From: Prostheceraeus crozeri
Lineage: Eukaryota > Platyhelminthes > Polycladida > Euryleptidae
Length of the DNA: 64,000 nucleotides
Direction: 5' to 3'
NCBI GenBank assembly: GCA_907163375.1
Contig: CAJQUW010007079.1
Coordinates: forward strand, 55,753 to 119,752
Shown here in pieces: positions 4,850 to 64,000 of this stretch. Under the pieces are notes generated by a model, which saw nothing but the letters and a program-made list of their open reading frames with translations, searched no databases and had not been told where the DNA came from. The number at the start of each line of letters is the position of its first letter. Within the stretch, counting starts at the first letter, position 1. The position numbers and the translations under genes were made by a program.

Positions 4850-4861
4850 AAAAAATATCAT

Positions 4862-6340: not shown

Positions 6341-6513
6341 GCCTTATTCATGTAGACTTATAGCTTTTCTTAACATCTTCATTCAGTATTTGTCCTGGGT
6401 ACACCTTGATAAGACCAGGCGAAAGATCTCGGTGTTAACTTTCATTTTTCTTTTAACTTACTTCGAATAAAATGACTTCGAGCAACTTAGTGGTACTTTT
6501 CCTCTACAAAATT

Positions 6514-24950: not shown

Positions 24951-25079
24951 GGTTAGGGTTAAGGGTTAGGGTTAGGGTTAAGGTTAGGGTTAGGGTTAGG
25001 GTTAGGGTTAGGGTTAGGGTTAGGGTTAAGGTTAGGGTTAGGGTTAAGGTTAGGGTTAGGGTTAAGGTTAGGGTTAGGG
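24951..25079 (+). repeat. Internal telomere-type (TTAGGG) array
   Basis: About 21 consecutive TTAGGG or TTAAGG hexamers, several with one base changed. TTAGGG is the animal telomere unit. The array lies inside the element, followed directly by two hairpins. Confidence 0.9.
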
Positions 25080-25114
25080 AAGCAAGAAGAGTATCTATGG
25101 CACCCGGAACCCAT

Positions 25115-39400: not shown

Positions 39401-39484
39401 TGGTGGTGATGGCGACGTAGGGATGATGGTTGGCGGGAGGAGACGTCATTTTATTTGGGCGGGTGGGAGATTCGTTTCATTTAT

Positions 39485-41605
39485 CTAATCAACGTTTATC
39501 ATGGGATCAATCATTGAAGTCACAATCTACATCTAATGAATTACGTTTCACTCTACTCCATATCATAAAGACTAACCTTTGTCGAATAGCTTAAGTACTC
39601 TGACCTGGAGAGAAAAAGCATCACATTGAGTAAGACGTCGAATGCCCAACATGAGCGACAGCTCAGAGGTCTCGGTCTAACAAACGACGAACAATCCGTG
39701 GAAAACAATCCCTCTACGGCAGTACCCGCTGTCTCGAAAGAATGCTCCAGCAAAGGAGGTATTACAGAGATGACATGTTTCATGAGCAGAAGTGAATCTC
39801 TTGTTAGCAAGACAGCAACTTGATGAAAACCAACTTCCAGATGCAGATTCTTCATTAAGTACAGCAAAGTGTTTGGAGTGAGATCATCTGATTTCACTAG
39901 TATCAATGTAAGGCAACTGCTTCACTCTAAAACCATTGATGGTTACTTCCTCTGTGGATTTGGCTTCAGTGGATGTAGTCTTCACTCCAAGTTTTGATTC
40001 AGTCAACGAAACATCTAGTGTGTGAAACCTTTAGATGAAATGTCACTCTATGAATTCATCGTCTAAACTCACTTAACGTTAACTTCAAGAAGCAGTTTGG
40101 AATGATGCACACTTCAATGTCGATTCTATCATTGCAAGTGTTAATTCACAACGCACACTCGAATGAAACCAACTCATTTGAAACATCTTGGATGATATGC
40201 CCGTTTGATTTACGGTTTGGGGCAACTATATTCAACGTTTGTCACTATGACTTCCGTGTCAATATCCAACCTAACCTAAAAAACATTTACTTATGCAACT
40301 TCTAACACATGCGATACTGATTGACGAAACAGCATTAGCTGATTCCTAGTGTCAATATATGACTGCAGTAGACAATCATGTAACACAGGGGTTCCCAACC
40401 TGGCGTACGGGGGTGCGCGAAGGAATTTTGAGGGGTACGCAGAATATGGGAGATTTATTATGATTCAATTTTACTTTCATTACTTTTCTGTTCATGGGTC
40501 TGTTAAACTGTTAAACTTTGTGCGCATTCCGCATTGGATTGTCATCATCTGCCCTTGAAGCAACCGTTGCTAATTAGCGACCACCAACTCGACTCCAACC
40601 ACATACTTATATGAATTCGTTTTCTCCACCATAGTAATGATTAAAAGCAAACAAAGAACTTGTTTGATGTTGGAGCATGTGTTGTTACAGTTATATACAG
40701 TATAGTTTGTGCGCATCAGTTATACCTAGTCTAATTTTTGTGTTATCCAATTACGAATTTCGTATACTTATACGCGTAATTAAATTTTAGTATGATTGAA
40801 TTCTTGCTATGTTAAGTGAGGGTACGCGGAATAATGAAAAATTCCATGATTCTCTACGTTGGGGTACGCAACATGAAAAGGTTGTGAACCCTTGATCTAA
40901 CATGACTTTCCATTCGTATGATTTAAACAAGCGATTGAATGCTATCTAAATGAAGATATGTGTGTTTTGTGTATGCATTTGGTGCAAGGTTGACCTCCCT
41001 TTCATTTCATCATTTAACCTCAGTGATAGAGGCAGTTCTTAAAAGAACTCATGGGCCATTCTTCAATCGTTTGTGGAGGGTCTTAAAGAAAACCTGGGCG
41101 AGATTGCTAAAGCATTCATGACCGAGCGATAGAAAAGATTACGTTGAGATCAGTGTCACATGCCCAACATGAGTTTCCTCAGGGGTTTCGGTCTAAAGTA
41201 TGACACAACCCCTTGCCATCCTTCCATCTGTGGCAGTGCTCGCCGTCCAAAAGGAGCGCCTCACCGTAGGAAGCATTATATCGAAGGTTTCCACATGACG
41301 TTGAGATGACCTGATAGCAAGCCATTCAGTGTATCAACCTCCCCCTCTGCATTCCATATCCGAAGATATGTGGCGGGCTTGGGACCGCTCTCGCTGCATT
41401 AGGAGGTAGCATCATGAAGGCCGTTTGGGGCGTTCTCGAGAGTGGCATTACTTCTTGACGTGGCCTGCAAGGAGAGAAGCATGAATGAAAGATGATATGA
41501 TTCTATTTTCCTGTCTGATACTTACGGAATTTGTGGGTTTTCTGTACTCTACGCGGATGTCCTCTTGATGATGTTCAGATGATAGCATCGAACATCCGCG
41601 CAGTT
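39485..41605. other. Decayed DNA left of and around the hAT MITE
   Basis: No convincing gene. Frames up to 117 codons (for example 39553-39906 minus) have no recognisable domain. The hAT MITE lies within at 40386-40894. Confidence 0.35.
40386..40894. mobile_element. Non-autonomous hAT element (MITE), 509 bp
   Basis: Starts CAGGGGTTCCCAACC and ends GGTTGTGAACCCTTG, the imperfect complement. Flanking 8-mers ATGTAACA (40378-40385) and ATCTAACA (40895-40902) match in 7 of 8 positions, the target length of hAT transposons. Internal GGGGTACGC repeats near both ends. No coding sequence. Confidence 0.8.
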
Positions 41606-41611
41606 GAAGCA

Positions 41612-41677
41612 CTCCTGGGTATCGTCCATCTTATTATTCTGATAGATGAGAGTGCAATCCGGAACGATACCCAGGAG
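41612..41677. repeat. Hairpin with a perfect 14-bp stem
   Basis: CTCCTGGGTATCGT at 41612-41625 pairs with ACGATACCCAGGAG at 41664-41677 around a 38-base loop. It precedes decayed coiled-coil sequence; meaning unknown. Confidence 0.6.
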
Positions 41678-41741
41678 TTAAACGTGGATGGCGGTGAGCT
41701 ATTCCGAGTACACGACATCATCCTTCTTCAAATCCGCCAAG

Positions 41742-42272
41742 TCACTCTCCAATTCTCACACTCTCAACAACGCTGCCTCCTTCAACTCACGCTCTCGATA
41801 CTCAGCCCTCTCCTTCCGCTCCAACCTCTCCTCAGCCTCCTCCTTCAACTGTCTCTCAGTCACATACTTCTGCCTCGCCTCCACACATTCTCTCCACTTC
41901 TCTGGCACACTAAGCATTTCTCTTCAATACATCACGCTCCACAGTCACGCATTTCACCGTGCTTCTCAACGCTTTCACTCGCCCCCTCAATCGGGTACAG
42001 TCCCTCTGTACATTACCATACACCAATTCATTCTTCCTCTTCAACATAACTTCACCCGGCACCGTCGACTTTTCAACCTTGACAACACACTTCGGCAGCA
42101 GCTCATCATACAGCATCCCCTTCGTGCCACACAACACTTCCCTCATCATGTGCTTTCCTATTGCCCTATTCACACATTTTGAGTGCGCCATACTAAATAT
42201 ATCGTTTTGCGCATCACATTTCATATTACCCCACACACAGCACCACATATTTATCCACAACATGATCAGCAC
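41742..42272 (-). pseudogene. Remnant of a coiled-coil Maverick-type gene
   Basis: Minus-strand frames give Cys/His-containing sequence (SKCVNRAIGKHMMREVLCGT), then RKNELVYGNVQRDCTRLRGR and, after a frame break near 41912, EKWRECVEARQKYVTERQLK and EERLERKERAEYRERELKEA. The order (metal-binding start, charged middle, coiled coil) resembles Mav2 gene A. Similarity is of type rather than of residues, so the relation is uncertain. Confidence 0.35.
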
Positions 42273-42559
42273 TCTTCGACGGACGAACTCGGAATCGCTA
42301 ACCGCTGAAACCTCACCACAGGAGCATTTTACAACCTAGCGCTTATTCACATCTTTCGTCATGTTGCTTGTATTAGGTATCACTATAAAGAGATAGAATA
42401 ATTTGCGAGATTGAGAAAATAACGCTCGCTCACTCATATGAAACGTTTAACAATCTCATTGCTTTTTGACTTAACAAAAAGTCAAATATTTTTCAAATTT
42501 CGCAGTCTCCACGAAATTTCTGTCACTTTTGCTGGTCATGTGTTTCGTCAGACTAAAGG

Positions 42560-43297
42560 AATATCTATGGGAGGGAATTGCAGCCCTCTTTGGCTGACCT
42601 TTTAATTTCGCATTGCGAATTAATATATATGACTGACCTAATTAAAGACAAGAAAACAGGACTTGCTCGTTTATTATCCAATACATCTCGTTATATAGAT
42701 GACATCTGCATTATCAACTACACGAGCTTTGGTTCGAGAATCCCATTGATTTATCCTGATAGTCTGTAAGCTAGTCGCAGTGGACATGACGACAAATGTG
42801 TAGAGTATTTGGATGTAAAATTAGAAATTTCGAAAGATGGCTTAAAAACTTCAGTGTACCACAAAGTAAATGACTTTAATTTCCCCGTTACTTTGTTAAC
42901 TTTTCCGGATAATACGATTCCGCATAAGATGGGTGCTCAAGTCTTTGCGAGCCAAGTTTTGCGATATGGTCGCATCTGTACACACGAATTAGATTTTATC
43001 AATAAAGTTCGGAATACATTTCAGCTTTTGGTAGCAAGAAGCTACTCTAGATTTGAACTTAAGCAGTCCGCTCAGAGACAGTTGCAAAAACATTGGGAAG
43101 TTATCTTAAAATTCGGTTATTATTCAGCTAAGCAAATGCTAGACAATCATTTATTTTAATGTTTATTCTGATTTGAATAACTGATTAATAACGATTAATT
43201 TGATGGCAATTTTTTTTTAATTATTATTTTGTATTTATTGTCGCAGCTTTCATTTTATAAATTAATAACTGTGGATTGAGGCTGCCTTTGTGCAGGG
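42560..43297 (+). pseudogene. Reverse-transcriptase remnant (3' part)
   Basis: Frames contain the catalytic box RYIDDICIINY, then IPLIYPDSL, EYLDVKLEISKDGLKTSVYH, DFNFPVTLLTFPDN, ASQVLRYGRIC and a terminal helical segment, the order of a Penelope-type or related RT palm and thumb. Stops and shifts separate the pieces (for example near 42770). The 3' tail is duplicated in reverse at 37690-38010. No GIY-YIG domain follows. Confidence 0.65.
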
Positions 43298-44559: not shown

Positions 44560-45300
44560 CATCGCTGAGTCCCCCCCCCCTCTGGCACGGCAGAGTGTCG
44601 TGGTCGGCCGCCGTGGTGCTTCGTGTCTGAGTCCCCCCCCCTCTGGAACGACAGAGGTTGTGGTCTGTCGTGGTGTGCCGGCCAGGTGGGTCCACGTTCA
44701 CAACATGTTCGCTGACGTCCCCCCCCCTCTGCAACGACAGAGTGTGAGACTCGGGTGAGTTGGTCCGACCGCCTGGTTGACGTGGGCGACCGTCTAGGTT
44801 GACGTGGGCGACCGCCAGGATTAGTCTTGAGGCTATAGTGTGTGATGTTTTTGGTGCAATCTGCTGAATGTTGGGTTGTAAAATGGGTTGTTTCGAGTGG
44901 AAGGAGTGGTCGGATGAGAAAACGGAGGTCGGATTCGTGTTCAGCGTGAAATTCTGCATCGGTAGGGTGAGTTTCAAGGCAATCGGTGAGAAAAAATTTT
45001 TCTTCAAAATTTTAACAGAGTTAGAATTTGGGACGTTTTGGTGTGTAGCGTCCAAACGAAGCATCGGATGAGAAAACGGAGGTCAGATTCGGATTCAGCG
45101 TGAAATTCTGCATCGGTAGGGTGAGTTTCAAGTCAATCGGAGAGAAAAAATTTTCGGCTGACGTCCCCCCCCTCTGGACAGCTTGCTTCCAGTGGACGGA
45201 TTTTGTCGTGCGATAGCTCGTTTGAAAGCTAAGAGTGAGACAAATTCAGTGAAAGAATCGGCTTGTTCCTATCTGTCTTCGTTCAAAAGTTAGAGCGGTT
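44560..45300 (+). repeat. Degenerate poly-C/CTCTG-CAGAG repeats leading into the satellite
   Basis: Four segments (44570, 44632, 44719, 45165) carry a run of 8-10 C followed by CTCTG, and in three of them CAGAG a few bases later, forming a small hairpin. The G-rich complement could fold into quadruplexes. A ~110-bp duplication beginning GATGAGAAAACGGAGGTC is seen at about 44912 and 45067. Confidence 0.6.
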
Positions 45301-46960
45301 ACAAGATTTTAGGTCGGAGCTCGCTCACCTGAAAAAATCCTAAGTGTCAGAGTGACTTTGTATGGGTAAAATTTTGAAAATTTTCCAAAGTGTGGAATTT
45401 CGACCTGGGACCGCCACCAAAACATTTTTCATCAAACTTCACTGACTCCCCCGACAGCAATCTTCTAACTTTGGTTCTAGTGGACGGATTTTGTCTTACA
45501 GCTACTCGTTTGAAAGAGGAGAAAAAACTGCTCGACAACATTTTTTGTTGCGAGTCAATCGGACCAGCCGTTCACAAGTTAGAGCGGTTACAAGATTTTA
45601 GGTCGGAGCTCGCTCACCTGAAAAAATCCTAAGTGTCAGAGTGACTTTGTATGGGTAAAATTTTGAAAATTTTCCAAAGTGTGGAATTTCGACCTGGGAC
45701 CGCCACCAAAACATTTTTCATCAAATTTCACTGACCCCCCCCCCCCCGACAGCAATCTTCTAACTTTGGTTCTAGTGGACGGATTTTGTCTTACAGCTAC
45801 TCGTTTGAAAGAGGAGAAAAAACTGCTCGACAACATTTTTTGTTGCGAGTCAATCGGACCAGCCGTTCACAAGTTAGAGCGGTTACAAGATTTTAGGTCG
45901 GAGCTCGCTCACCTGAAAAAATCCTAAGTGTCAGAGTGACTTTGTATGGGTAAAATTTTGAAAATTTTCCAAAGTGTGGAATTTCGACCTGGGACCGCCA
46001 CCAAAACATTTTTCATCAAATTTCACTGACCCCCCCCCCCCGACAGCAATCTTCTAACTTTGGTTCTAGTGGACGGATTTTGTCTTACAGCTACTCGTTT
46101 GAAAGAGGAGAAAAAACTGCTCGACAACATTTTTTGTTGCGAGTCAATCGGACCAGCCGTTCACAAGTTAGAGCGGTTACAAGATTTTAGGTCGGAGCTC
46201 GCTCACCTGAAAAAATCCTAAGTGTCAAAGTGACTTTGTATGGGTAAAATTTTGAAAATTTTCCAAAGTGTGGAATTTCGACCTGGGACCGCCACCAAAA
46301 CATTTTTCATCAAATTTCACTGACCCCCCCCCCCCGACAGCAATCTTCTAACTTTGGTTCTAGTGGACGGATTTTGTCTTACAGCTACTCGTTTGAAAGA
46401 GGAGAAAAAACTGCTCGACAACATTTTTTGTTGCGAGTCAATCGGACCAGCCGTTCACAAGTTAGAGCGGTTACAAGATTTTAGGTCGGAGCTCGCTCAC
46501 CTGAAAAAATCCTAAGTGTCAGAGTGGCTTTGTATGGGTAAAATTTTGAAAATTTTCCAAAGTGTGGAATTTCGACCTGGGACCGTCACCAAAACATTTT
46601 TCATCAAATTTTGAAATTTCACTGACGTCCCCCCCCCCTCTGGACAGCTTGCTTCGATTTTGGCTTCCAGTGGACGGATTTTGTCGTGCGATAGCTCGTT
46701 TGAAAGCTAAGAGTGAGACAAATTCAGTGAAAGAATCGGCTTGTTCGTATCTGCCTTCGTTTAGATGTGAGACGCCATTTAAGATTTTAGGTCGGAGCTC
46801 GCTCACCTGAAAAAATCCTAAGTGTCAGAGTGACTTTGTATGGGTAAAATTTTGAAAATTTTCCAAAGTGTTGGAATTTCGACCTGGGACCGTCACCAAA
46901 ACATTTTTCATCAAATTTCTCTGAATGAGGGGGGGGGAGGGGGGGGTCAGTGAAATTTGA
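45300..46960 (+). repeat. Satellite with ~290-306 bp unit and variable poly-C
   Basis: The phrase TGTCAGAGTGACTTTG starts at 45345, 45634, 45929, 46223 (one change), 46517 (one change) and 46823, giving periods 289, 295, 294, 294 and 306. The units are almost identical except for a poly-C run that grows from 5 to over 10 bases and a divergent last unit. At about 46930 the array ends in an inverted partial unit (GGGGGGTCAGTGAAATTTGA), so the C-run is answered by a G-run. Confidence 0.85.
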
Positions 46961-47281: not shown

Positions 47282-47811
47282 GTAAGCGACGGTCGTCGCT
47301 CTGAGCTCCCGATATCGGGTGCAAAGGACTCTATCTTTTGAAGTAGGCAAGCTATCTTGCTACTTCAAAGTTTGTATGATAGAGTTTGATAGTGTCTTTA
47401 CTACTGATAAAATTTTTTAAAAGTAGTATGAGTAGTAAAATGCGGAATTTTTTAAAAATTCTTAATTTTCAGTTTTTTCAAAGTTTTAACATATAGACTA
47501 AGGTTTTCAAGTATCCTGAGTTCAAATCTGCTATCAGATTTGAAATTTAACTAAGTCTAAGGCAGCTTTGAGGGGTTAGATCCCAGCTACTGATCACTAC
47601 CTTTGACTCGGCGTTCCTGTTACCACTTCGGGGCAGTGACAATGATGTCTTCAGCTGTAAAGAGCGGGTATCGGGGAAGATCTCTCACTTCCCTAGTGAT
47701 CAGTACAAGGCCTTCGGGCTGTCGACGGGATCGAGTGCCACTCACTACACTCTTTAGGAATATGACTGTACTACATGATTCCAAACTTATACAAATTTCA
47801 TTATCTTACAG
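47282..47811 (+). other. Predicted 5' intron of gene A with structured RNA
   Basis: Donor GAG|GTAAGC at 47281/47282 and acceptor TTATCTTACAG at 47801-47811, 17 bases before the start codon. Inside is a strong two-part hairpin at 47328-47385 (ACTCTATC with GATAGAGT; TTGAAGTA with TACTTCAA and GCAAG with CTTGC). A second long-range stem pairs CTGATCACTA (about 47591) with TAGTGATCAG (about 47694). Confidence 0.5.
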
Positions 47812-47828
47812 CTAACGATAAATCAGGC

Positions 47829-48995
47829 ATGGCAAACGATAGAAACAGAAAGTATCATATCAAAATGTGTGTGTGCGGTCGTATAAATCGCAGTGCGGAC
47901 GCCAAGGCTCACGTCAAGAAGGCGGGCACCGGCCACATGATTATCTTGAATAGGGTTGCGTGCGTGAAGTGTAGAGTGCTGAAGGGTGATGAGGATGAGG
48001 CGCGTTTCTACAGAGTGCATGCTGACTGTAGTGGTGGTTTAGTGACTGATTTGAGATTTACGCAGTTGATTGTGGAAGAGAGGGAGCGAATGTTGGCGAT
48101 CGAGCGAGAGGGTAAGGTTGAGAATGTTGTTGAGAATGATGAGTTGGCGAGAGCGGTTGCGTCGTTGGAGGGTGAGATTGGGCGAAAGAGAGTGCTTGAG
48201 AGTGATGATGAGGATGATGTGGATTTAGATAGGGAGCGTGTGAGGAAGCGTGTGAGGAAGTTGAGCTCTTCGTCATCGGAGGTGTCAAACATCGTCATCA
48301 CCGACCCCCCGAAGAGCTCATCTTCCCCAAAAGTGAAGAGTGGTGGGATTCGTGTGCAGTCGGCGAGGTGGTTGAAGGATGAAGAGAAGAGGCATGTTTC
48401 GCAGCAGATGGCGCATGATTTGTTGGTGAATAAGTATGAGAGTTTGAAGAAAGTGAAGGATGAAGTTGTGAAGGAGTTGGATGAGTTAAAAAAGAAGGAA
48501 CTGAAGTCGAAGGAGGTGGCGGATGAAAACATTAGAATGAGGCGTTGTGTGACTGATTTGAAGAATAAGACGCGAGAGTTGGAAGAGAAGAATGATGAGT
48601 GTGAGAAGAGGGCGAGTGCTGCGGAGAGAAGAATGAGAGATGCAGAGGCGAAGTTTGAGGAGATGATGAAGGAGATGAGTGTGTTGAGAGCGAGGAATGT
48701 TGAGTTGGAGAGGACTGTGGCTCGGCGGGGTGATGAGAGGCAGGCGTATGAGAAGTTGGAGCGCATGAGGGATGAGTGGGAACGTGTGAATGAGGATCGT
48801 TTGTTTGAGTTTCACATCCCTATTCGGGATAATCATTTGGCCGGCGAAGTACTCGTCAATCAAAGTCTCGACGAGTCCATCCTATGTTACAATGGTCATC
48901 CGAGCAAGAAGTGTCTGCATGCCAGCCTGAGAATGCGCGGTCACCTACATAAATTCTCGATTCGGAAACGCGCGAGACTGCCAAAGGATGACTAA
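47829..48995 (+). CDS. Mav2 gene A: Cys/His and coiled-coil protein, 388 aa
   Basis: Starts at ATG 47829, 17 bases after the splice acceptor. Residues 14-48 hold CVC, His28, His36 and CVKC, a candidate zinc site. An acidic stretch (LESDDEDDVDLD) and SSSSSEV follow, then a long coiled coil from about 195 to 345 (KYESLKKVKDEVVKELDELK, RELEEKNDECEKRASAAERR). The C-terminus is basic. Strongly purine-biased, GAG/GTG-rich codons differ from the AT-rich polB. Domain order matches the seven-exon Mav1 gene. A 61-bp intron (49000-49060) lies 4 bases after the stop. The transcript ends in the stem-loop/ribozyme module at 49113. Function unknown. Confidence 0.7.
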   Translation: MANDRNRKYHIKMCVCGRINRSADAKAHVKKAGTGHMIILNRVACVKCRVLKGDEDEARFYRVHADCSGGLVTDLRFTQLIVEERERMLAIEREGKVENVVENDELARAVASLEGEIGRKRVLESDDEDDVDLDRERVRKRVRKLSSSSSEVSNIVITDPPKSSSSPKVKSGGIRVQSARWLKDEEKRHVSQQMAHDLLVNKYESLKKVKDEVVKELDELKKKELKSKEVADENIRMRRCVTDLKNKTRELEEKNDECEKRASAAERRMRDAEAKFEEMMKEMSVLRARNVELERTVARRGDERQAYEKLERMRDEWERVNEDRLFEFHIPIRDNHLAGEVLVNQSLDESILCYNGHPSKKCLHASLRMRGHLHKFSIRKRARLPKDD

Positions 48996-48999
48996 CTTG

Positions 49000-49060
49000 G
49001 TAAGTGAAAAAGTAAATAAGATAGTATATCCTATTCTAATACATATCATTTTCATTGCAG
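49000..49060 (+). other. Predicted 3'-UTR intron of gene A
   Basis: TTG|GTAAGT donor at 48999/49000 and TTCATTGCAG acceptor ending at 49060. It lies within 55 bases of the stop codon, too close to trigger decay by the exon-junction rule. Confidence 0.6.
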
Positions 49061-49112
49061 ATCTTTGCCCGCCTTCACCACCCCATCACGTCACTCCCGA
49101 GAACGAACCATC

Positions 49113-49128
49113 GGCTCTCTTAAGGGCC
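49113..49128 (+). terminator. Histone-type 3' stem-loop, copy 1 (gene A)
   Basis: GGCTCTCTTAAGGGCC: six base pairs (one T-G) closing a four-base loop CTTA, followed by ACC. This fits the metazoan histone mRNA stem-loop pattern (GG at the base, pyrimidines opposite purines, 4-nt loop, ACC after). GAACCATC precedes it. Identical in all three copies. Confidence 0.7.
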
Positions 49129-49133
49129 ACCTA

Positions 49134-49202
49134 GGGGCAAGACATGATAGAACCTCCACGCGGTTTGCCCTGGGCAGTCTTTAGACTGGCGAATACTATC
49201 AT
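49134..49202 (+). ncRNA. HDV-like self-cleaving ribozyme, copy 1
   Basis: Order and pairing fit the nested double pseudoknot: P1 GGGGCAA (49134-49140) with TTGCCCT (49165-49171), starting with a G-T wobble as in HDV; P2 ATGATAG (49144-49150) with CTATCAT (49196-49202); P3 ACC/GGT around L3 TCCACGC; GG after P1 for P1.1; P4 CAGTC-TTTA-GACTG; J4/2 GGCGAAT with the catalytic-type C at 49190. Predicted cleavage is between 49133 and 49134, exactly 5 bases after the stem-loop. A further 7-bp hairpin AAGTTGA/TCAACTT follows at 49204-49229. Confidence 0.85.
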
Positions 49203-49253
49203 TAAGTTGAATCTGCTATCAGTCAACTTGAACGTTGCGTCGCGTTAGAGGGG

Positions 49254-49260
49254 TATATAA
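49254..49260 (+). promoter_or_regulatory. TATA box of Mav2 gene B
   Basis: TATATAA, 33 bases before the ATG and 25 bases after the module of gene A, showing that gene B starts its own transcript. Confidence 0.7.
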
Positions 49261-49292
49261 ACCACTGCCTCTCATTTCATTTCATTTCAATC

Positions 49293-49559
49293 ATGCAGAC
49301 GCCGAACAGTCAAGTCAGCTCTCCTCGCGGACCACAGTTAAGGCCGCGAAATTTATTTGAGGAGTTTGTTAGGCTAGAGGAGCAAGACAGAGTTTTTAAT
49401 AATCTTGCTCGGATTGGCAATCCGATGACAGCAACTGCTGTCAATCCAACGGAATGGCGCTACATTCCAATTTTTAGTCATGTGCCAGTTAGTGTGGAAG
49501 TCGACAGTGCTACCAAAGAGAGAGTCAAAGACTCTCTCAGCAGAATTGGTAGGGTGTAA
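49293..49559 (+). CDS. Mav2 gene B, unknown protein of 88 aa
   Basis: First ATG after a TATA box. The N-terminus is Pro/Ser/Arg-rich (MQTPNSQVSSPRGPQLRPR), the middle an acidic amphipathic helix (LFEEFVRLEEQDRVFNNLAR), the end strand-like (YIPIFSHVPVSVEV). No family recognised. The stop is 30 bases before the second stem-loop, so the 3' untranslated region is very short, as in histone genes. Confidence 0.6.
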   Translation: MQTPNSQVSSPRGPQLRPRNLFEEFVRLEEQDRVFNNLARIGNPMTATAVNPTEWRYIPIFSHVPVSVEVDSATKERVKDSLSRIGRV

Positions 49560-49588
49560 GATAACGTTACTCCCGAGAACGAACCATC

Positions 49589-49604
49589 GGCTCTCTTAAG
49601 GGCC
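49589..49604 (+). terminator. Histone-type 3' stem-loop, copy 2 (gene B)
   Basis: Same 16 bases as copy 1, followed by ACCAT and the ribozyme. It begins 30 bases after the stop codon of gene B. Confidence 0.7.
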
Positions 49605-49609
49605 ACCAT

Positions 49610-49678
49610 GGGGCAAGACATGATAGAACCTCCTCGCGGTTTGCCCTGGGCAGTCTTTGGACTGGCGAATACTATCAT
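49610..49678 (+). ncRNA. HDV-like self-cleaving ribozyme, copy 2
   Basis: Same fold as copy 1. L3 is TCCTCGC (identical to the classical HDV L3 pattern) and the P4 loop is TTTG. Cleavage is predicted between 49609 and 49610, leaving a 3' end ...GGGCCACCAT. The catalytic-type C is at 49666. The downstream hairpin is at 49680-49705. Confidence 0.85.
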
Positions 49679-49777
49679 TAAGTTGAATCTGCTATCAGTC
49701 AACTTGAACATTATGCAGTCGATTGCTATCCCTGAAGCATTCTGATTCGCTGTTGAGCAATTCATTGTTGAAAACCC

Positions 49778-49784
49778 TATATAA
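49778..49784 (+). promoter_or_regulatory. TATA box of Mav2 gene C
   Basis: TATATAA 42 bases before the ATG of gene C. Upstream stands GCAGTCGATTGCTATCCCTG, which recurs at about 50617 and 50821. Confidence 0.7.
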
Positions 49785-49825
49785 GCCAGAAGATTGTAGC
49801 ACTTCTCATTCAATTTGAAGTCACG

Positions 49826-50080
49826 ATGGAAGCAACGTCTCCTGCCAACATTCCCGTCTTCACCGATGAAGACAACGGCATTCCCAACTTCATCATCCTC
49901 GACGAGTGGGATGAAGAGGATGAGAAGAAGGGGAAGATCAAGAAGATCATTTGGACGGATGAGGTGTGGACTCCTAAAACCACCCGCATCCGAAAGGTGC
50001 CAGATGCACCAGTACGACCTCGGCGGTATAGGGTCTATGACAACCTAGCTGTCATACCTATTGACTATTCAAGCCAATAG
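49826..50080 (+). CDS. Mav2 gene C, unknown acidic/basic protein of 84 aa
   Basis: Starts MEATSPANIPVFTDEDNGIP; a strongly acidic block (LDEWDEEDEKKG) is followed by basic, Pro-rich sequence (PKTTRIRKVPDAPVRPRRYR) and ends IPIDYSSQ. No family recognised; probably largely disordered and possibly regulatory. Its own TATA box and its own terminal module make it the third one-gene cassette in a row. Confidence 0.6.
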   Translation: MEATSPANIPVFTDEDNGIPNFIILDEWDEEDEKKGKIKKIIWTDEVWTPKTTRIRKVPDAPVRPRRYRVYDNLAVIPIDYSSQ

Positions 50081-50120
50081 TCAACTTAATTGACACCATT
50101 GACACCGAGAACGAACCATC

Positions 50121-50136
50121 GGCTCTCTTAAGGGCC
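50121..50136 (+). terminator. Histone-type 3' stem-loop, copy 3 (gene C)
   Basis: Same 16 bases, 41 bases after the stop codon of gene C, followed by ACCAT. Confidence 0.7.
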
Positions 50137-50141
50137 ACCAT

Positions 50142-50210
50142 GGGGCAAGACATGATAGAACCTCCACGCGGTTTGCCCTGGGCAGTCTTCGGACTGGCGA
50201 ATACTATCAT
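50142..50210 (+). ncRNA. HDV-like self-cleaving ribozyme, copy 3
   Basis: Same fold; L3 is TCCACGC and the P4 loop is TTCG, the most stable tetraloop. The catalytic-type C is at 50198. Cleavage is predicted between 50141 and 50142. The downstream hairpin is at 50212-50237. Across the three copies the changes fall in loops (L3, L4) or in the spacer, not in paired bases. Confidence 0.85.
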
Positions 50211-50237
50211 TAAGTTGAATCTGCTATCAGTCAACTT

Positions 50238-51776: not shown

Positions 51777-54700
51777 ATGGTAAGTGGAAAATTTCCTCTC
51801 TCATCTCCCTCAAACGTGTGACTAATAGCATCTTCCTCAATTTCAGGCATCAACTTCATCACCAACGCCCTCTCTTCTCGAGGAAAGTTTAGAGTTATTG
51901 AGTCAAGGTAGGTTGTAACACTACACTGAGGCTTGAACAGAGATGAAAGAATGATTTCTCTTTCAGGTGATGTGAGTTCCAGCTCAGGACTCTCGCGGCA
52001 AGGCAACGAGTGGGAATGTACCGACTGCGGACATATGTTTACAAGGAAGCACAGTCTCCTTCGACACATCAAACAACGTGTGTGTAAACGCATAGCGGCG
52101 TCAATCTCCGGAGGTGAAGTTGATTCTGACGATGACATCTCCTTTCCTTGCGATTTGTGCCCTCTTTCTTTTGATAGTCACTTTCAGCGATCTTCGCACA
52201 GACTTCAACACACGCATGCAAATGATCACTACACCAACGGTACATCTACCATCTCCCTCATTAATGTTTCACATAATAATTTAGTACGCGACTACTGCAT
52301 GGAGTCCAATACTCAAATTGTAGATTTTCCTGAGTGGCTCCTTCAAAATTCTAACATTATCGAAGCGCTCTTCAATAATTTAGACAATTTTAGAATGAAG
52401 GCGCTCATCTACCTTAAACTAAAATATATTAAAATAGATTTTCAAACGGGTCAAGTGACGGAGAGAATACAGTTTCATGTTCCTTCCTCTTCCGCAACCG
52501 AAGTTGTAGACTGCGAGTCTTGGCTAAATTTTCACATTCAATGTTTAAAATCAAATGTAGATAAATTCAATCAACGCGACAGCGCTCTCATTTTTGATGG
52601 TGTGGACTCAGCCATATTCAAAATTTCCCTATTAGAAAGTCATGCAGCTCGAGGCACATTTAAACTACCAAAAACGTTGTATAATAAGAAAGCTGTCATC
52701 AATGTTGATTGTAAATCACAGTGTTTCAAATATGCAGTCTTATCCATCCTTCACTATAATGATATCAACGCGCATCGAGATCGCACCTATAGCTATAGAC
52801 AGTGGGAGGATGAACTAGACTTTGAAGGTTGTGATAGTAACAACATGAAAATCAAAGATGTAGAAACGTTCGAAAAACATAATCAGATTAAAATTGTAGT
52901 TCACGTGTGGGAGAAGGGGTTGAAGGGTGCCCGCTATAATTCACGTTCAACTTGTTATGAACGTGTAGTCAACCTCTTATTAGTAAAACAAGATGATAGC
53001 GAGGAATGGCACTACTGTGGTATTCCCAAAATCTCTCGCTTGTACACTCACTTGGGGCACTCTAAAAGAGGTGAACATTTTGTATGCGACCGCTGCATCC
53101 GCTCATTTTGGAGTAAAGATAAATTTGAAACTCACTATGAATGGTGCAAGCGAGGTAAATTACAAATGGAACGCATGCCCAAAGATAAAATATTTTCACA
53201 TAGGGATAATGGTGACGAATTAAGTCCCCTGCGTGTCATTTACGCAGACATAGAATGCTACATTGATGATATCATCCACAAGCCAGCAGCCATATCCTGC
53301 TATGAAGTATGGCATGACCACTTTAGGAATAGACAAAAGAAAATGCATACTTGGCAAGGTGAAGATTGCATTTCAAAATTTCTAGAATTTCTCGATAAAG
53401 CTGCAAAATTTCAACAATCATATGATTCCCAATTGCAGCGTAAGTCACTACACATGTCAGATGAAGACAAACAAAAATTTGAAAGTTGCACATCCTGCCC
53501 TAAATGTCATAAAACGTTTGATGACGATAAAATTAAGAAAGTGCGTGATCATGATCACATCACTGGTAAATTTAGAAACGCACTCTGCTCCAAATGTAAC
53601 TTTTCACTTAGGTTGAGACGTCGTGTACTACCCGTCATTTTTCATAACTTTAAGGGCTATGACAGTCATATGCTCATAAAAGGAGGGTTGAGCCAGATGA
53701 AATCGTGGCAGTTTAATGTAATAGCACAAACGAGAGAAAAATTCATGGCAATGACAGCAAAAGTACCAGTAGATAAAACTAAAGAAAATAAGACAGTCTT
53801 CTTCGAAATAAAATTTTTAGATTCATTTCAATTCATGTCAGCGTCACTAGCTTCTCTCGTTCGTAATCTCAAGTTTCTTCCCCATAGTCAAACTTTGAAG
53901 AAACACTATCCAAACTTAACGGATGAAATAATCACTCGCAAAGGAGTCTTTCCTTATGCGTATTTTAGCTCAATGTCTAAACTAAATGAAACAACCCTTC
54001 CTTCCATTGACAAATTCAAAAACGATTTGACGGGTGAAGATTGTCCAGTAGAGGACTATGAACATGCTCAAGAGGCATGGTTAAAATTTAATTGTAAAAC
54101 GTTTGGCGATTATATGATCGCTTACTTAGAATTAGATGTCATTTTGCTGGCTGATGTCTTTCAGGAGTTTCGACGAGTGGCATTAGAAGAAGACAAATTA
54201 GATCCTGTCCACTTTGTCAGTCTACCAGCCATGTCCTTTAAATCAGCCTTTAAAATGACTGGTGAGACCATTCATCTCTTACAAGACCCGGAGATGTATA
54301 ATATATTTGAGCGCGGAATACGCGGTGGTCTCACATTTGTAAATAAACATCATATAAAATCTGAAACAGTAGGTGATGATCATATCCACCTAAAGTACTA
54401 TGACCAAAATAATTTATATGGCAGTTCACTGTCTAAACCACTACCTCATTCCGAGTTTAGTTGGTTAAATCAAAATGAGCTTGAGTATTACTCCAACCCT
54501 TCAAACATACTGAATATTCCAGATGAAGGTGATTGGGGATATTATTTTGAAGTGGATTTGATTTATCCAAATAGTATTAAAAATAAAACTGCTGATTTCC
54601 CACTCGCACCTGAATCTGGCGAAGTGACTGAAGATATGTTTTCACCATTCATGTCACAATTTCATAATAACTTAACAGAGTGTGGACAGCCAAGGTACAA

Positions 54701-55750
54701 ACCATGCCGCAAACTTTTACTCACCCAATATGATAAGAAAAATTATCTCGTACACTTATGCATATTAAAATTCTATTTAGAAATGGGCATGCTTCTAAAG
54801 TCAGTTCACCGCATTATCAAATTTAGACAGAAAGCCTTCCTCAAACCCTACATAGATAGTAACAGTCAAAAACGTGCACTCGCCCAAAATAATTTTGAAA
54901 AGGATTTTTATAAATATAAGAATAACAGTCTATTCGGAAAGACCATGGAGGATGTTAGAAACGTATGATTTACAAACTAGTCGTTGATGAACAAAAATAT
55001 CACAAATTGACCTCATCACCTCTTTTCATTGATAGAGACATCATCGATGAGGATCTTGTAGGTGTTAAAATGATTAAATCAGAAGTTGAGTTGTGCAAAC
55101 CCATCTATATTGGGCAAGCCGTTTTAGATTATTCCAAGCTTGAAATGTATCAACTCTTCTACAAAATATTAAAACCATGCCCTCTCGTAAAAGAGGTTCG
55201 CTTGCTGGGTGGTGATACAGATAGTTTCTTTTTAGGAATTACCACTCAAAAAGATTTAAATTTTAATGAAGTAGGTAAGTCATTAGAAAAATATTTCGAT
55301 ACATCTAACTACAATCCCACTCATCCACTCTATTCCATACAGAATAAAGCCAAACTTGGCTGTTTTAAGGATGAAACAGCAGGAAAGGAAATAGATGAAA
55401 TGATTCTCCTCCGTCCTAAAATGTATTCCATGAAACTAAAAGAATGTGCAGATAGTATTAAGCGTGCTAAAGGTATATCAAAATCCATTGTTCATAAAAT
55501 GAAACATCGGTCCTATAAGAAGGCCTATAAAAATAAAACTATAACGTTTGTCAATATGACAATCTTAAAATCTCAAGTTCATACTGTGAAAACGTACACG
55601 TTCAAGAAACGAGCACTTTCAGCATGGGAGGATAAGAGGTGTTGGATAGGACATAACACATCTCTTCCACATGGACATCCTGACACAAACATACCTCCAC
55701 CCAAAAGAAAAAAACTCACGCTACCACATTCAGGAGATGTATTGACATAA
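51777..55750 (+). pseudogene. polB: Protein-primed family B DNA polymerase, spliced, one frameshift
   Basis: Predicted exons: 51777-51779 (only the ATG), 51847-51907, and 51967 onward; donors GTAAGT and GTAGGT, acceptors TTTCAG and TTTCAG, phases 0 and 1. Then a zinc finger (CTDCGHMFTRKHSLLRHIKQ), exonuclease IYADIECYIDD (~53240), the Cys/His module with DHDHITGKFRNALCSKCN, FHNFKGYDSHML, motif A YYDQNNLYGSSL (~54410), motif B NSLFGKTMEDV (~54930) and motif C GGDTDSFFLG (~55210). The frame breaks at about 54960 by a one-base contraction of an A-run; the mirrored copy on the right is open at that spot. This may be sequencing error rather than decay. Confidence 0.9.
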
Positions 55751-55899
55751 TCAACTTTAACTCAGTATTTTGATGTTGCTTTTTGTAGATATACATGGTT
55801 GTTTTATGTATCGCATGAGATCGTTTCTTCCTTGTGAATATATGCCTACAGTCAGCCCATTCCCCCTATATCTGTGAAAAGACTTTTTCATATACATAT

Positions 55900-55915
55900 T
55901 TTTATTTCAATAAAC
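55900..55915. terminator. Back-to-back poly(A) signals
   Basis: AATAAA on plus at 55910-55915 for polB and AATAAA on the minus strand in the adjacent TTTTATTTC for the convergent gene. These two genes therefore use ordinary polyadenylation, unlike genes A to C. Confidence 0.55.
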
Positions 55916-55929
55916 ATATCACAATGACT

Positions 55930-57480
55930 TCACTTTGTTTTCCGAAACACTAAAGTTACGAGGGATTTAGTATCTTTCACATGGATACACTCTTGTAAAC
56001 CATTGGTAATTTTGATAGCAATAGAGGGTATAGTTTGTTTGACGACGGGATGATAGAAAATAGATTCAAACATCTTCTCGACTATTCCATATGAAGCGTC
56101 TTTATCATGAATGAAATCACGTAAAATGTATTCTTTTTTCTCGCCAACAGAAATAGGTAAAATCAAATCACTTTGAATGTAAAGGTGCTGTTCATGTTTA
56201 TCAAGTGTCATTGGTGTTTCTATACCAATCGTATGCGCAGCAGCAAACACAGTTTGTAGCATTGAAAAGCCAAAGAGTTTTTTCAAATTTTTACTCAATT
56301 GACATTGAATGTCATCACCCAGTTTCAGAACAACGCGTTGATTTTCAATTGAAAACGAAATGTGGTGTGTCTTTACATCATATTTACTTTTCATCACATG
56401 CTTCAACTTCTGTTGTATATAAGGATTTACTACATGAATGAAGCTTTCAACTGTATGATATAGACGCGGCATTATATTGATAGCAACTTTAGATTCTTCA
56501 TAAGACTGGTAAATTTTCTTGATGCGATCACCATAGATGTCCACCCACCATTCATCATTAACTGAATCAGCTTTAGTGTGATATTCATGAGAAGCATACA
56601 CCACACCGCTTCCAATAATAGGTGTATAATGTCTTACAAAATGACGCAAGGTTGGAGAGAAATAAACTGTAAGTTTGTCATTATATTTCTGAATAACCAA
56701 CTTATTTTTGTCCGCCATAATTTTCTCTCCATACTTCTTACCCACAGTCTCATTCCATCGTTTTACTAACTCAATAAGTGATAAAGGTTGAGCACCACGC
56801 TTTTTCAAAATGATGCGTTCTTCGCATTCTACAACATCTTCATCAAATATTTTAAATCTATAATGAAATTTGTTGATTCGATTTGAATAAACTTTTTTAA
56901 CATTTGCAGTAGCAATTGACGTTAGATGTAGTCCATGACCAAAACCAAGATGTGGATAGAATTCACTATCCAACCTCAGCGTAAGACCTTTAGTAAAAGA
57001 ATGAAAGCGGAGGAACTGTCTCCCACTCCAATGATAGATAGTAAACTCATAAGCTTTCTGATTTTTATTCTTCATGATGGAAGTATTACCACTGTTGAAT
57101 GCCTTAATAATTTTCTCATTCCCAAATGGCTCATAAGAATCTGATTTTATCTGAATCCATTCATAGTTCCACTTTCCATCTGATGTTAAATTGTATGGGA
57201 ACTGAAATGCATTATTCATCGTTATTCCATCATGGGTGCGAGGAGTCAATATCATTTCTTCCAAATCATTCACATTCTGAATATTGCTATCATAGCAAAT
57301 ACTAGAAACGCCAACCTCCCATTCACCTTCTAAATGCAGTGGGCGATTTAATTCTACTCGATAGTCTGATGGTTTATTTTTGGGAAATTTATTCATAGAA
57401 GCATTACTGGGCAAGTAGATTAGAAACGAGTCCTTATTTTCACTTTCCATATTATTCACATTGGAAAAATATATTAGCAT
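55930..57480 (-). CDS. LPSNS-family Maverick protein, complete copy
   Basis: 516 residues from ATG 57480 (or 506 from the second Met, MESENKDSF). It shows FLIYLPSNASMNKFPKNKPS, LEGEWEVGVSSICY, and near the end LYIQSDLILPISV and VTLVFRKTK. Full length compared with the 525-residue Mav1 homologue; sequence is diverged but the ends and spacing agree. Convergent with polB. Function unknown; a virion component is likely from position in Mav1. Confidence 0.75.
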   Translation of the reverse strand: MLIYFSNVNNMESENKDSFLIYLPSNASMNKFPKNKPSDYRVELNRPLHLEGEWEVGVSSICYDSNIQNVNDLEEMILTPRTHDGITMNNAFQFPYNLTSDGKWNYEWIQIKSDSYEPFGNEKIIKAFNSGNTSIMKNKNQKAYEFTIYHWSGRQFLRFHSFTKGLTLRLDSEFYPHLGFGHGLHLTSIATANVKKVYSNRINKFHYRFKIFDEDVVECEERIILKKRGAQPLSLIELVKRWNETVGKKYGEKIMADKNKLVIQKYNDKLTVYFSPTLRHFVRHYTPIIGSGVVYASHEYHTKADSVNDEWWVDIYGDRIKKIYQSYEESKVAINIMPRLYHTVESFIHVVNPYIQQKLKHVMKSKYDVKTHHISFSIENQRVVLKLGDDIQCQLSKNLKKLFGFSMLQTVFAAAHTIGIETPMTLDKHEQHLYIQSDLILPISVGEKKEYILRDFIHDKDASYGIVEKMFESIFYHPVVKQTIPSIAIKITNGLQECIHVKDTKSLVTLVFRKTK

Positions 57481-57489
57481 ACGTTTGCA

Positions 57490-57996
57490 TTAACTCTTCA
57501 TTCGGAAATGGAGTGTGATACTTGTCACAGCATCTTTATGAAAAGGAATCAACGCACCAGCATCGTCATAAATGGCAATATCAATTTGTGGGATGTAGTT
57601 TGATTTCAGCTTTGTATAATGCACTTTCTTGAAAGTATGCTCAGATAAAATACTGCAGCTTTTTGGCTGGTATGGTATCATTGCTAGCAATGGAGCTTCA
57701 ACATCTCCCACACGTACATCTTCACCAATATTGGAATATATCTGAAAATAGTTAATACGACGCGATAGCGACATGTCTGCGCTAGCTTTGGTTACAGTAC
57801 CACTTTTAAAGATATTTTGATCAAAACCCAAAATGTCCATTAGAGTTTTATCCATAATTAGTTCAATACCTTTTCCACTTATAGTGAGAGACAAAGTACC
57901 TTCTTTTTCAGAAAATAAAATATGTTGGTCATTAATCACTTCATTTAAATAATCTACAACCAATTTAATCGAAGTAATAATGCGAGGCATCAACAC
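57490..57996 (-). pseudogene. LPSNS-family protein, C-terminal third only
   Basis: About 166 residues: KLVVDYLNEVINDQHILFSE, YFQIYSNIGEDVRVGDVEAP, IDIAIYDDAGALIPF, ending VTSITLHFRMKS. It aligns with the C-terminal third of both 12463-14040 and 55930-57480, so it is a second family member placed directly upstream of the complete one. Its N-terminal part is cut off at the centre of the palindrome, about 50 bases away. There are ten bases between the two genes, suggesting a shared minus-strand transcript. Confidence 0.75.
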
Positions 57997-58040
57997 TCTT
58001 GTTTCATGTAAGATACCACCTAAAGGCTCTACACACTTTC

Positions 58041-58054
58041 TGTATCTATATTAC
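58041..58054. other. Centre (spacer) of the palindrome
   Basis: Fourteen unpaired bases, TGTATCTATATTAC, between CACTTTC and GAAAGTG. The first 45 pairs next to it contain several mismatches, then the arms become regular. Confidence 0.85.
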
Positions 58055-58099
58055 GAAAGTGTTTTAGAGCCTTTTGAGGTTTCTTACATGAAACAAGAG

Positions 58100-58630
58100 T
58101 GTTGATGTCCTCGCATTATTACGTCGGTTGAAATTGGTTGTAAGATTATTTAACTGAAGTGTTAATGAGCAACATATTTCATTTTTCTGAAAAAGAAGGT
58201 ACTTTGTCTCTCACTTATAAATGGAAAAAGGTTATTGAATAATTATGGATAAAAAATCTATGGACATTTTGAGTTTTGATTCAAAATATCTTGATAGTGG
58301 ATACTGTAACCAAAAGCTTGCGCAGACATGTCGCTATCGCGTCGTATTAACTATTTTGATATTATTTCCAAATATTTGGTGAAGATGTAGTGTGGGAGAT
58401 GTTGAGTCCATTGCTAGCAATGATACCATTCCAGCCAAAAAAAAAGCTGCAGTATTTTATCTGAGCATACTTTCAAGCGAAAGTGCATTATACAAAGCTG
58501 GAAATCAAACTACAATCCCACAAATTGGATATTGCCATTATATGATTGATGCTCGCTGGTGGCGTTGATTCCTTTTCATAAAGATGCTGTGACAAGTATT
58601 ACACTCCATTTCCGAATGAAGAGTTAATGC
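58100..58630 (+). pseudogene. Mirrored LPSNS C-terminal third, heavily indel-ridden
   Basis: Corresponds to 57490-57996 on the opposite strand but has no long open frame: extra bases in T, A and G runs shift the frame many times. The damage is far denser than in the next 5 kb. Confidence 0.8.
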
Positions 58631-58636
58631 AAAAGT

Positions 58637-60152
58637 ATGCTAATATATTTTTCCAATGTGAATAATATGGAAAGTGAAAATAAGGACTCGTTTCTAATCT
58701 ACTTGCCCAGTAATGCTTCTATGAATAAATTTCCCAAAAATAAACCATCAGACTATCGAGAAGAATTAAATCGGCCACTGCATTTAGAAGGTGAATGGGA
58801 AGTTGGCGTTTCTAGTATTTGCTATGATAGCAATATTCAGAATGTGAATGATTTGGAAGAAATGATATTGACTCCTCGCACCCATGATGGAATAACGATA
58901 AAAATGCATTTCAGTTCCCATACAATTTAACATCAGATGGAAAGTGGAACTATGAATGGATTCAGATAAAATCAGATTCTTATGAGCCATTTGGGAATGA
59001 GAAAATTATTAAGGCATTCAACAGTGGTAATACTTCCTTCATGAAGAATAAAAATCAGAAAGCTTATGAGTTTACTATCTATCATTGGAGTGGGAGACAG
59101 TTCCTCCGCTTTCATTCTTTTACTAAAGGTCTTACGCTGAGGTTGGATAGTGAATTCTATCCACATCTTGGTTTTGGTCATGGACTACATCTAACGTCAA
59201 TTGCTACTGCAAATGTTAAAAAAGTTTATTCAAATCGAATCAACAAATTTCATTATAGATTTAAAATATTTGATGAAGATGTTGTAGAATGCGAAGAACG
59301 CATCATTTTGAAAAAGCGTGGTGTTCAACCTTTATCACTTATTGAGTTAGTAAAACGATGGAATGAGACTGTGGGTAAGAAGTATGGAGAGAAAATTATG
59401 GCGGACAAAAATAAGTTGGTTATTCAGAAATATAATGACAAACTTACAGTTTATTTCTCTCCAACCTTGCGTCATTTTGTAAGACATTATACGCCTATTA
59501 TTGGAAGCGGTGTGGTGTATGGTTCTCATGAATATCACACTAAAGCTGATTCAGTTAATGATGAATGGTGGGTGGACATCTATGGCGATCGCATCAAGAA
59601 AATTTACCAGTCTTATGAAGAATCTAAAGTTGCTATCAATATAATGCCGCGTCTATATCATACAGTTGAAAGCTTCATTCATGTAGTAAATCCTTATATA
59701 CAACAGAAGTTGAATCATGTGATGAAAAGTAAATATGATGTAAAGACACACCACATTTCGTTTTCAATTGAAAATCAACGCGTTGTTCTGAAACTGGGTG
59801 ATGACATTCAATGTCAATTGAGTAAAAATTTGAAAAAAAACTCTATTGCTTTTCAATGCTACAAACTGTGTTTGCTGCTGCGCATACGATTGGTATAGAA
59901 ACACCAATGACACTTGATAAACATGAACAACACCTTTACATTCAAAGTGATTTGATTTTACCTATTTCTGTTGGCGAGAAAAAAGAATACATTTTACGTG
60001 ATTTCATTCATGATAAAGACGCTTCATATGGAATAGTCGAGAAGATGTTTGAATCTATTTTCTATCATCCCGTCGTCAAACAAACTATACCCTCTATTGC
60101 TATCAAAATTACCAATGGTTTACAAGAGTGTAATCCATGTGAAAGATACTAA
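58637..60152 (+). pseudogene. Mirrored LPSNS-family gene with frame breaks
   Basis: Copy of 55930-57480. Frame breaks near 58905, near 59840 (longer A-run) and near 60133. Otherwise residues are nearly identical, including FLIYLPSNASMNKFP and LHLEGEWEVGVSSI. Confidence 0.85.
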
Positions 60153-60367
60153 ATCCCTCGTAACTTTAGTGTTTCGGAAAACAAAGTGAAGTCATTGTGA
60201 TATGTTTATTGAAATAAAAATATGTATATGAAAAAGTCTTTTCACAGATATAGGGGAATGGGCTGACTGTAGGCATATATTCACAAGGAAGAAACGATCT
60301 CATGCGATACATAAAACAACCATGTATATCTACAAAAAGCAACATCAAAATACTGAGTTAAAGTTGA

Positions 60368-63300: not shown

Positions 63301-64000
63301 CATCCTCCCACTGTCTATAGCTATAGGTGCGATCTCGATGCGCGGTGATATCATTATAGTGAAGGATGGATAGGACTGCATATTTGAAACACTGTGATTT
63401 ACAATCAACATTGATGACAGCTTTCTTATTATACAACGTTTTTGGAAGTTTAAATGTGCCTCGAGCTGCATGACTTTCTAATAGGGAAATTTTGAATATG
63501 GCTGAGTCCACACCATCAAAAATGACAGCGCTGTCGCGTTGATTGAATTTATCTACATTTGATTTTAAACATTGAATGTGAAAATTTAGCCAAGACTCGC
63601 AGTCTACAACTTCGGTTGCGGAAGAGGAAGGAACATGAAACTGTATTCTCTCCGTCACTTGACCCGTTTGAAAATCTATTTTAATATATTTTAGTTTAAG
63701 GTAGATGAGCGCCTTCATTCTAAAATTGTCTAAATTATTGAAGAGCGCTTCGATAATGTTAGAATTTTGAAGGAGCCACTCAGGAAATTCTACAATTTGA
63801 GTATTGGACTCCATGCAGTAGTCGCGTACTAAATTATTATGTGAAACATTAATGAGGGAGATGGTAGAGGGACCGTTGGTGTAGTGATCATTTGCATGCG
63901 TGTGTTGAAGTCTGTGCGAAGATCGCTGAAAGTGACTATCAAAAGAAAGAGGGCACAAATCGCAAGGAAAGGAGATGTCATCGTCAGAATCAACTTCACC
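60368..64000 (-). pseudogene. polB: Mirrored polB copy with several one-base deletions
   Basis: Copy of the Mav2 polymerase, running off the window end. Frame breaks at about 60938, 61285, 61830, 62395, 62770 and 62890, mostly loss of one base from a short homopolymer (CCC to CC and similar). The site broken in the left arm (~54960) is intact here (about 61155), so the two arms complement each other's lesions. Confidence 0.85.

Follow-up and report, generated by a model that had tools for sequence, protein, structure and literature searches.

Three consecutive genes of a Maverick-type DNA element in the polyclad flatworm Prostheceraeus crozeri each end in a histone-type stem-loop (SL) that is directly followed by a hepatitis delta virus (HDV)-like ribozyme. 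The genes lie in a 64,000-nucleotide (nt) stretch of contig CAJQUW010007079.1; the whole of this stretch is called the window here, and coordinates refer to it unless a locus (L number) is named. Judging from sequence, the ribozyme probably replaces the U7/CPSF73-dependent cleavage step, thereby making SL-ended, non-polyadenylated mRNAs for SLBP.

An earlier note on this DNA had described three 69-nt segments with the complete HDV-like order, intact stems and a G-T wobble as the first P1 pair, and a reading of the sequence bears this out (Table 1). In all three copies, P1 consists of 7 base pairs (bp) (GGGGCAA/TTGCCCT), P2 is a 7-bp pseudoknot (ATGATAG/CTATCAT), P3 has 3 bp (ACC/GGT), the loop L3 has 7 nt (TCC(A/T)CGC), P4 has 5 bp (CAGTC/GACTG), and J4/2 reads GCGAATA and contains the catalytic-type C. 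The order of the HDV-like nested double pseudoknot, P1-P2-P3-P1.1-P4, is correct. The note was right in placing ribozymes after the genes, but its interpretation was incomplete, since it overlooked the SL: GGCTCTCTTAAGGGCC ends 5 nt upstream of every window ribozyme, with ACCTA or ACCAT in the gap. The pairing of SL and ribozyme was recognised from matches to the Rfam family RF00032 (histone 3' stem-loop) that overlapped the start of each ribozyme. The window SLs fit the histone form, a 6-bp stem GG(Y)3T / A(R)3CC with a 4-nt loop and AC behind it, without any mismatch to this pattern. Because the ribozyme starts 5 nt behind the SL, self-cleavage is predicted at the point at which histone mRNAs have their 3' ends. 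For histone mRNAs of C. elegans, the end lies 3-6 nt past a hairpin of the same kind, after A or U, and the hairpin loop is CTTT, or CTTA in four H2B genes (PMC1924863; this and the other papers given by PMC number are cited from excerpts). The predicted ribozyme-made ends (SL plus 5 nt, after A or T) lie inside this range. The motif CGAGAACG occurs at about 49098-49106 and in the corresponding position ahead of SL 2 and SL 3; it is common to the window and most diverged families, and was not seen at three host histone genes. The hairpins listed behind the ribozymes keep their place in diverged families, with the same or another sequence.

Table 1. Positions of the SL-ribozyme modules and of the genes of the element in the window
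Feature	Position	Strand	Remarks
Gene 1, 406-aa open reading frame (ORF), coiled-coil-like	47775..48995	+	stop 117 nt upstream of SL 1
Histone-type SL 1	49113..49128	+	GGCTCT-CTTA-AGGGCC then ACCTA
HDV-like ribozyme 1	49134..49202	+	predicted cleavage 49133/49134
Hairpin 3' of ribozyme 1	49204..49229	+	AAGTTGA/TCAACTT
TATA box of gene 2	49254..49260	+	TATATAA, starts 39 nt before ATG
Gene 2, 88-aa ORF	49293..49559	+	stop 29 nt upstream of SL 2
Histone-type SL 2	49589..49604	+	then ACCAT
HDV-like ribozyme 2	49610..49678	+	predicted cleavage 49609/49610
Hairpin 3' of ribozyme 2	49680..49705	+	
TATA box of gene 3	49778..49784	+	TATATAA, starts 48 nt before ATG
Gene 3, 84-aa ORF	49826..50080	+	stop 40 nt upstream of SL 3
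Histone-type SL 3	50121..50136	+	then ACCAT
HDV-like ribozyme 3	50142..50210	+	predicted cleavage 50141/50142
Hairpin 3' of ribozyme 3	50212..50237	+	
polB of the same element, two ORFs	51951..55750	+	51951-54968, 54965-55750

The SL is of the host's own type. The sequence GGCCCTCTTAAGGGCCAC, from which the window SL departs in a single letter (a stem T in place of C, giving a G-U pair), occurs 33 times in the genome, and its reversed control does not occur. Twelve of these places were fetched, comprising three histone genes, seven homologues of the element genes and two that are neither. At the histone genes, GGCCCTCTTAAGGGCCAC stands 34, 34 and 26 nt behind the stops of complete H4, H4 and H3 ORFs with no ribozyme there; the two H4 copies are the same sequence on the same contig. 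At the seven others it stands after homologues of the element's three genes, with the ribozyme following, and there the element SL equals the host H4/H3 SL letter for letter. The host genome also encodes the RNA-binding domain of SLBP, in two exons with scores of 52.7 and 32.9 bits against a cut-off of 27; the lower-scoring exon has one TGA within the frame of the matched stretch. A U7 snRNA model found nothing in the host genome, but it was also silent in every control genome and is hence uninformative.

Within the window, the ribozymes were also located with a ribozyme-only covariance model, R1, built from 21 copies of the same genome. R1 marks exactly the three segments at 83.7-85.9 bits, the next best place scoring 13.8, and these scores arise partly by construction, since the three window copies were in the model. 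A helix-only descriptor fires at 6 places in the window versus 9 across eight simulated windows, which is not significant alone. Minimum-free-energy folding of the window ribozymes is unremarkable (z -0.7 to -1.3) and uninformative, because it cannot represent the pseudoknot P2. The earlier note had taken the fact that the copies differ only in loops as a sign of selection on pairing. This holds within the 69 nt, but it is weak evidence for selection since the modules are 152-nt duplicates of 91-95% identity. Because the three copies are duplicates and the descriptor also fires in simulated sequence, we extended the search to the entire genome from which the window comes (2.05 Gb, 14,165 contigs). 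Among named sequences, its COX1 is closest to polyclad flatworms, at 69%, and a metagenome protein reaches 91%; scoring covered the 8000 candidates with the most shared words, and at least 120 matches were obtained.

The exact ribozyme core was found at 13,708 places, and the exact SL, 5-nt spacer and 5' half of the ribozyme at 10,080, with no match for the reversed-pattern control in either case. A search with RF00032, which is blind to ribozymes, gave at least 52 matches with 75 of 295,389 candidates scored. Nine exceeded the cut-off of 34, and seven of them have a ribozyme behind. Among the 20 loci fetched after this search, a diverged HDV-like ribozyme lies directly behind the SL in 18 (L026-L043); the two without one are L024 and L025. 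These two are the best RF00032 hits in the genome (L024 1501-1547, minus strand, 38.2 bits; L025 1501-1547, minus strand, 36.6 bits), and a reading as host histone genes finds no support, as no histone ORF was found within 900 nt upstream. Searching in the other direction, R1 matched 78 places in 48 loci. Of these ribozymes, 29 had played no part in the choice of a locus (L044 and L045 share one sequence), and a perfect 6-bp SL lies upstream of 20 of them, at a spacing of 5 nt in 16 and 4 nt in four. Among 25 SL-chosen copies the spacing is mostly 4 nt (12 copies) or 5 nt (7). When the Rfam HDV models were run at E 0.5 on 12 loci, they recognised only the copies of L016, all below cut-off; RF00032 exceeds its cut-off in six of these loci.

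Helices of the module covary across families. The alignment comprised 37 modules (36 distinct) in hand-picked rows, namely 30 of the 32 distinct sequences of one set, with window copies 1 and 3 replacing the other two, and five from another set. Paired cells make up 95.2% of 1042, compared to 26-42% in slid versions, with the SL pairing of 100% being by construction, because a perfect SL was required. Two-sided-change cells number 59, compared to 22.6 after shuffling. None of 500 shuffles equalled the covariation score of 0.185 (shuffles 0.110). The two-sided changes are located in the SL (three pairs) and in P1, P2 and P4 (one each). In P3, changes affect a single side of the pairs, and the G-C/G-U stack of P1.1 is preserved in 89% of cells. 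The SL types GGTCTT/AAGACC, GGCTCT/AGAGCC, GGCCCT/AGGGCC and GGCTCT/AGGGCC recur in a set that was not SL-selected. In an alignment fitted to R1, the active-site C in J4/2 is present in 49 of 50 distinct matches (one has a gap); the purine and the A two and three places after it, and the T and C of L3, are kept in all 50.

Between the window and four diverged families (L030, L036, L037 and L043), identity is 71-86% over the SL plus 5 nt and 67-83% over the ribozyme, compared to 40-65% for the stop-to-SL and post-ribozyme stretches; the TATA-to-ATG stretch is also high, at 71-81%. Recent duplication as the sole cause of identity is true for the three window copies and not for the diverged families, and a chance origin of the modules is ruled out by covariation, SL linkage and copy number.

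The three-gene block belongs to an element with a Maverick-type polB. The two are linked in the window and in all five other places followed (C13724, C12959, C12366, C6178 and C7219). In L056, L057 and L058 the block is joined to polB and neighbours nearly identical to those of the window, and in L059 and L062 diverged blocks are followed, in the same order, by polB pieces that are 54-81% identical. A domain search of the polB ORFs gave Endonuclease_7 and C2H2 domains. Among the matches listed there are 105 polB relatives, mostly metagenomic; the top one covers 70% of the query at 99% identity, and the runner-up reaches 81%. PF03175 occurs in relatives, one of which bears the name DNA-directed DNA polymerase. 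A second Maverick lies in the window at 6573-27440, with terminal inverted repeats (TIRs) of about 390 nt (96%), an integrase-like ORF with a chromodomain, polB and an AAA-type ORF, and the R1 scan of the window found no SL-ribozyme module in it. L056 and L058 contain homologues of its TBP-like ORF, and L056 also has one of its protease-like ORF. The likeness of the ribozyme-bearing element to Maverick/Polinton consists of polB and these homologues; an integrase-like ORF and TIRs were seen only in the neighbouring Maverick. The TATA-binding-protein domain ORF of the latter (PF00352, 5.6e-13) lies at 16473-17042 on the minus strand, and the homologues in ribozyme-bearing elements, at L056 8882-9283 (plus strand) and L058 242-706 (minus strand), are 33-34% identical; the element may thus bring its own TBP. 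With covariation, a kept active site, thousands of copies and the linkage to polB, the claim that HDV-like ribozymes stand at the 3' ends of consecutive Maverick-type genes is well borne out.

Gene 1 has no Pfam match above cut-off, and its homologues precede the SL and ribozyme in other copies. A possible intron, GTAAGT...TTGCAG at 49000-49060, begins 4 nt after the gene 1 stop, upstream of SL 1. Gene 2 homologues in diverged elements are 52-56% identical at the protein level. Neither AATAAA nor ATTAAA occurs in the 297+266+520 nt examined behind genes 1-3, whereas AATAAA does follow the 145-aa ORF, polB and the 516-aa ORF of the element, and therefore two kinds of 3' end may coexist in one element.

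Given both parts, their near-fixed spacing, the covariation, the conservation above the flanks, the host type of the SL and the host SLBP gene, we infer the following course for cleavage, RNA ends and SLBP binding. Each of the three genes would end in a two-part 3'-end maker, a host-type histone SL and, 4-5 nt on, an HDV-like ribozyme. After transcription, the ribozyme would fold and cut immediately 5' of its first G, and the resulting mRNA would end in SL-ACCAT or SL-ACCTA, a length like that of mature histone mRNA. HDV-type cleavage leaves a 2',3'-cyclic phosphate, which the mRNA end would carry. Host SLBP would bind to this SL and take charge of export, of translation and perhaps of S-phase control, substituting for the functions of poly(A); the ribozyme cut would thus replace both the SLBP/U7/CPSF73 cleavage and poly(A). 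The SL upstream likely gives the ribozyme a specific job, the formation of a histone-type mRNA 3' end. The cyclic-phosphate end might be protected from the trimming and uridylation by which histone mRNAs are degraded after S phase, and a TBP-like gene of its own may let the element control its transcription units at both ends.

Several observations weigh against this proposal. In a 1.5-kb stretch of the window, RF00032 scores the SLs at only 18.9, 18.1 and 18.1 bits, under its cut-off of 34, and the two HDV families stay below theirs, RF02682 with 28.6, 27.2 and 26.8 bits (E 0.0065-0.017, cut-off 44) and RF00094 with 27.7, 25.9 and 23.9 bits (E 0.15-0.78, cut-off 50). At gathering cut-offs, Rfam has no match anywhere in the window, which for the HDV models is one of the two outcomes that the earlier note had required together to refute its claim; the Rfam cut-off is a library threshold and no component of the HDV-like fold. 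In the 12 loci mentioned above, the Rfam HDV models at E 0.5 found none of the diverged ribozymes. The SL is imperfect or missing in 9 of the 29 unselected ribozymes, and some SL-chosen copies have a spacing of 2 nt (4 copies), 9 nt (1) or 10 nt (1). A perfect SL was demanded of nearly every row of the covariation set, and part of P2' of most. Two of the five covariation measures are not above shuffles (two-sided-change pairs 6 versus 5.9, further pair types 17 versus 20.8). AATAAA stands close 3' of the ribozyme in some diverged copies (L030 and L040), which fits untidily, and its absence over about 1.1 kb behind genes 1-3 could be chance. Finally, SLBP-dependent translation might not tolerate a 2',3'-cyclic-phosphate end.

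The 3' end might instead be made by the host's ordinary SLBP/U7/CPSF73 route, with the ribozyme-like fold as a relic or back-up, as the host type of the SL and a spacing from SL to predicted end that matches histone processing (PMC1924863) would allow. We regard this as unlikely, because the helices of the ribozyme covary and its active-site C, purine and A persist, because it has diverged less than most of the sequence around it, and because three host histone genes share the SL yet have no ribozyme. It is equally improbable that the ribozyme serves a downstream RNA or a gene border, freeing an RNA with a 5'-OH or separating neighbouring transcripts, with the mRNA ends arising in some other way. 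In R2 and L1Tc elements this is the established function: HDV-like ribozymes of retroelements do release element 5' ends from co-transcripts (PMC3774820, PMC4035085). The genes also lie close together, and each ribozyme has a hairpin behind it; however, no plus-strand gene lies directly behind module 3 in the window, genes 2 and 3 have TATA boxes of their own, and an SL at a spacing of 4-5 nt points to the upstream RNA. That the modules are inert passengers copied along with the element is very improbable: 34 of the 40 best genome matches are 100% identical, and copy number alone shows no function because many copies are near-identical, but diverged families, with a gene 2 protein of 52-56% identity, keep the SL and ribozyme above most of the surrounding non-coding sequence and carry compensatory changes.

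Viral contigs were searched as well. In 57 loci obtained by five scans there was no R1 ribozyme match at E 1, a result that says little for one scan, the pattern of which was one base short, and polB patterns found nothing in these contigs. Two of them (L004 13069-13108 and L009 8097-8136) have by eye another HDV-like fold with P4, to which R1 gives no match. The window contains further repeated structures. Around polB lies a large palindrome (52113-64000) with arms 98-100% alike that reaches the contig end, and it is either an inverted duplication or an assembly artefact; L057 likewise has polB in both orientations. A near-perfect palindrome with 1333-nt arms spans 3517-6513, with a reverse-transcriptase ORF at 4788-5666. 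Interstitial TTAGGG-like repeats occur at 24925-25091, a tandem array of about 294-nt units at 45158-46924, and an element with 292-nt inverted repeats that are 99.7% alike at 37696-43297.

Among known systems, the phage theta ribozymes are the closest precedent. According to the excerpts of PMC10879173, these HDV-like ribozymes of gut phages are likewise ribozymes of a DNA virus with a cleavage site at the 3' end of a viral RNA, often a tRNA, and spare a processing enzyme. They differ in having a minimal fold without P4, in acting at tRNA 3' ends and in belonging to bacteria, whereas the P. crozeri ribozymes have P4, stand behind protein-coding genes of an animal element and are attached to a histone SL. 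Ribozymes of the R2 and L1Tc/ingi retroelements have the same kind of fold in a eukaryotic mobile element and sit at the 5' end of the retroelement transcript (PMC3774820, PMC4035085), in contrast to P. crozeri, where every one of the three genes in a DNA element is followed by a ribozyme and the SL stands immediately before it. Replication-dependent histone mRNAs have the same kind of SL with an end 3-6 nt behind it, made with U7, the histone downstream element (HDE) and CPSF73 (PMC1924863, PMC9756948), whereas in the element cleavage is predicted to be by a ribozyme in cis and the genes are not histones. Among the matches listed from open PMC papers, no ribozyme or histone SL is reported for Maverick/Polinton. 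Titles and abstract starts of the open PMC papers among these matches contain no description of HDV-like ribozymes within Mavericks or combined with a histone SL, and none of ribozymes after individual Maverick genes, in line with the earlier note (subscription papers and most preprints lie outside this scope).

To our knowledge, every animal mRNA 3' end described so far depends on cleavage by a protein endonuclease of the CPSF73 type. We lean towards the view that this virus-like DNA element forms mRNA 3' ends in an animal by a third route, in which a self-cleaving RNA dispenses with U7, CPSF73 and poly(A) polymerase and SLBP accepts the products as histone mRNAs. If this is true, a ribozyme-made histone-type end would be a natural bypass of CPSF73-kind cleavage, HDV-like ribozymes would gain a role in mRNA 3'-end formation, and a mobile element would be using SLBP-dependent expression for non-histone genes. 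The modules of P. crozeri thus provide a concrete case for the question of what the HDV-like ribozymes scattered in eukaryotic genomes do.

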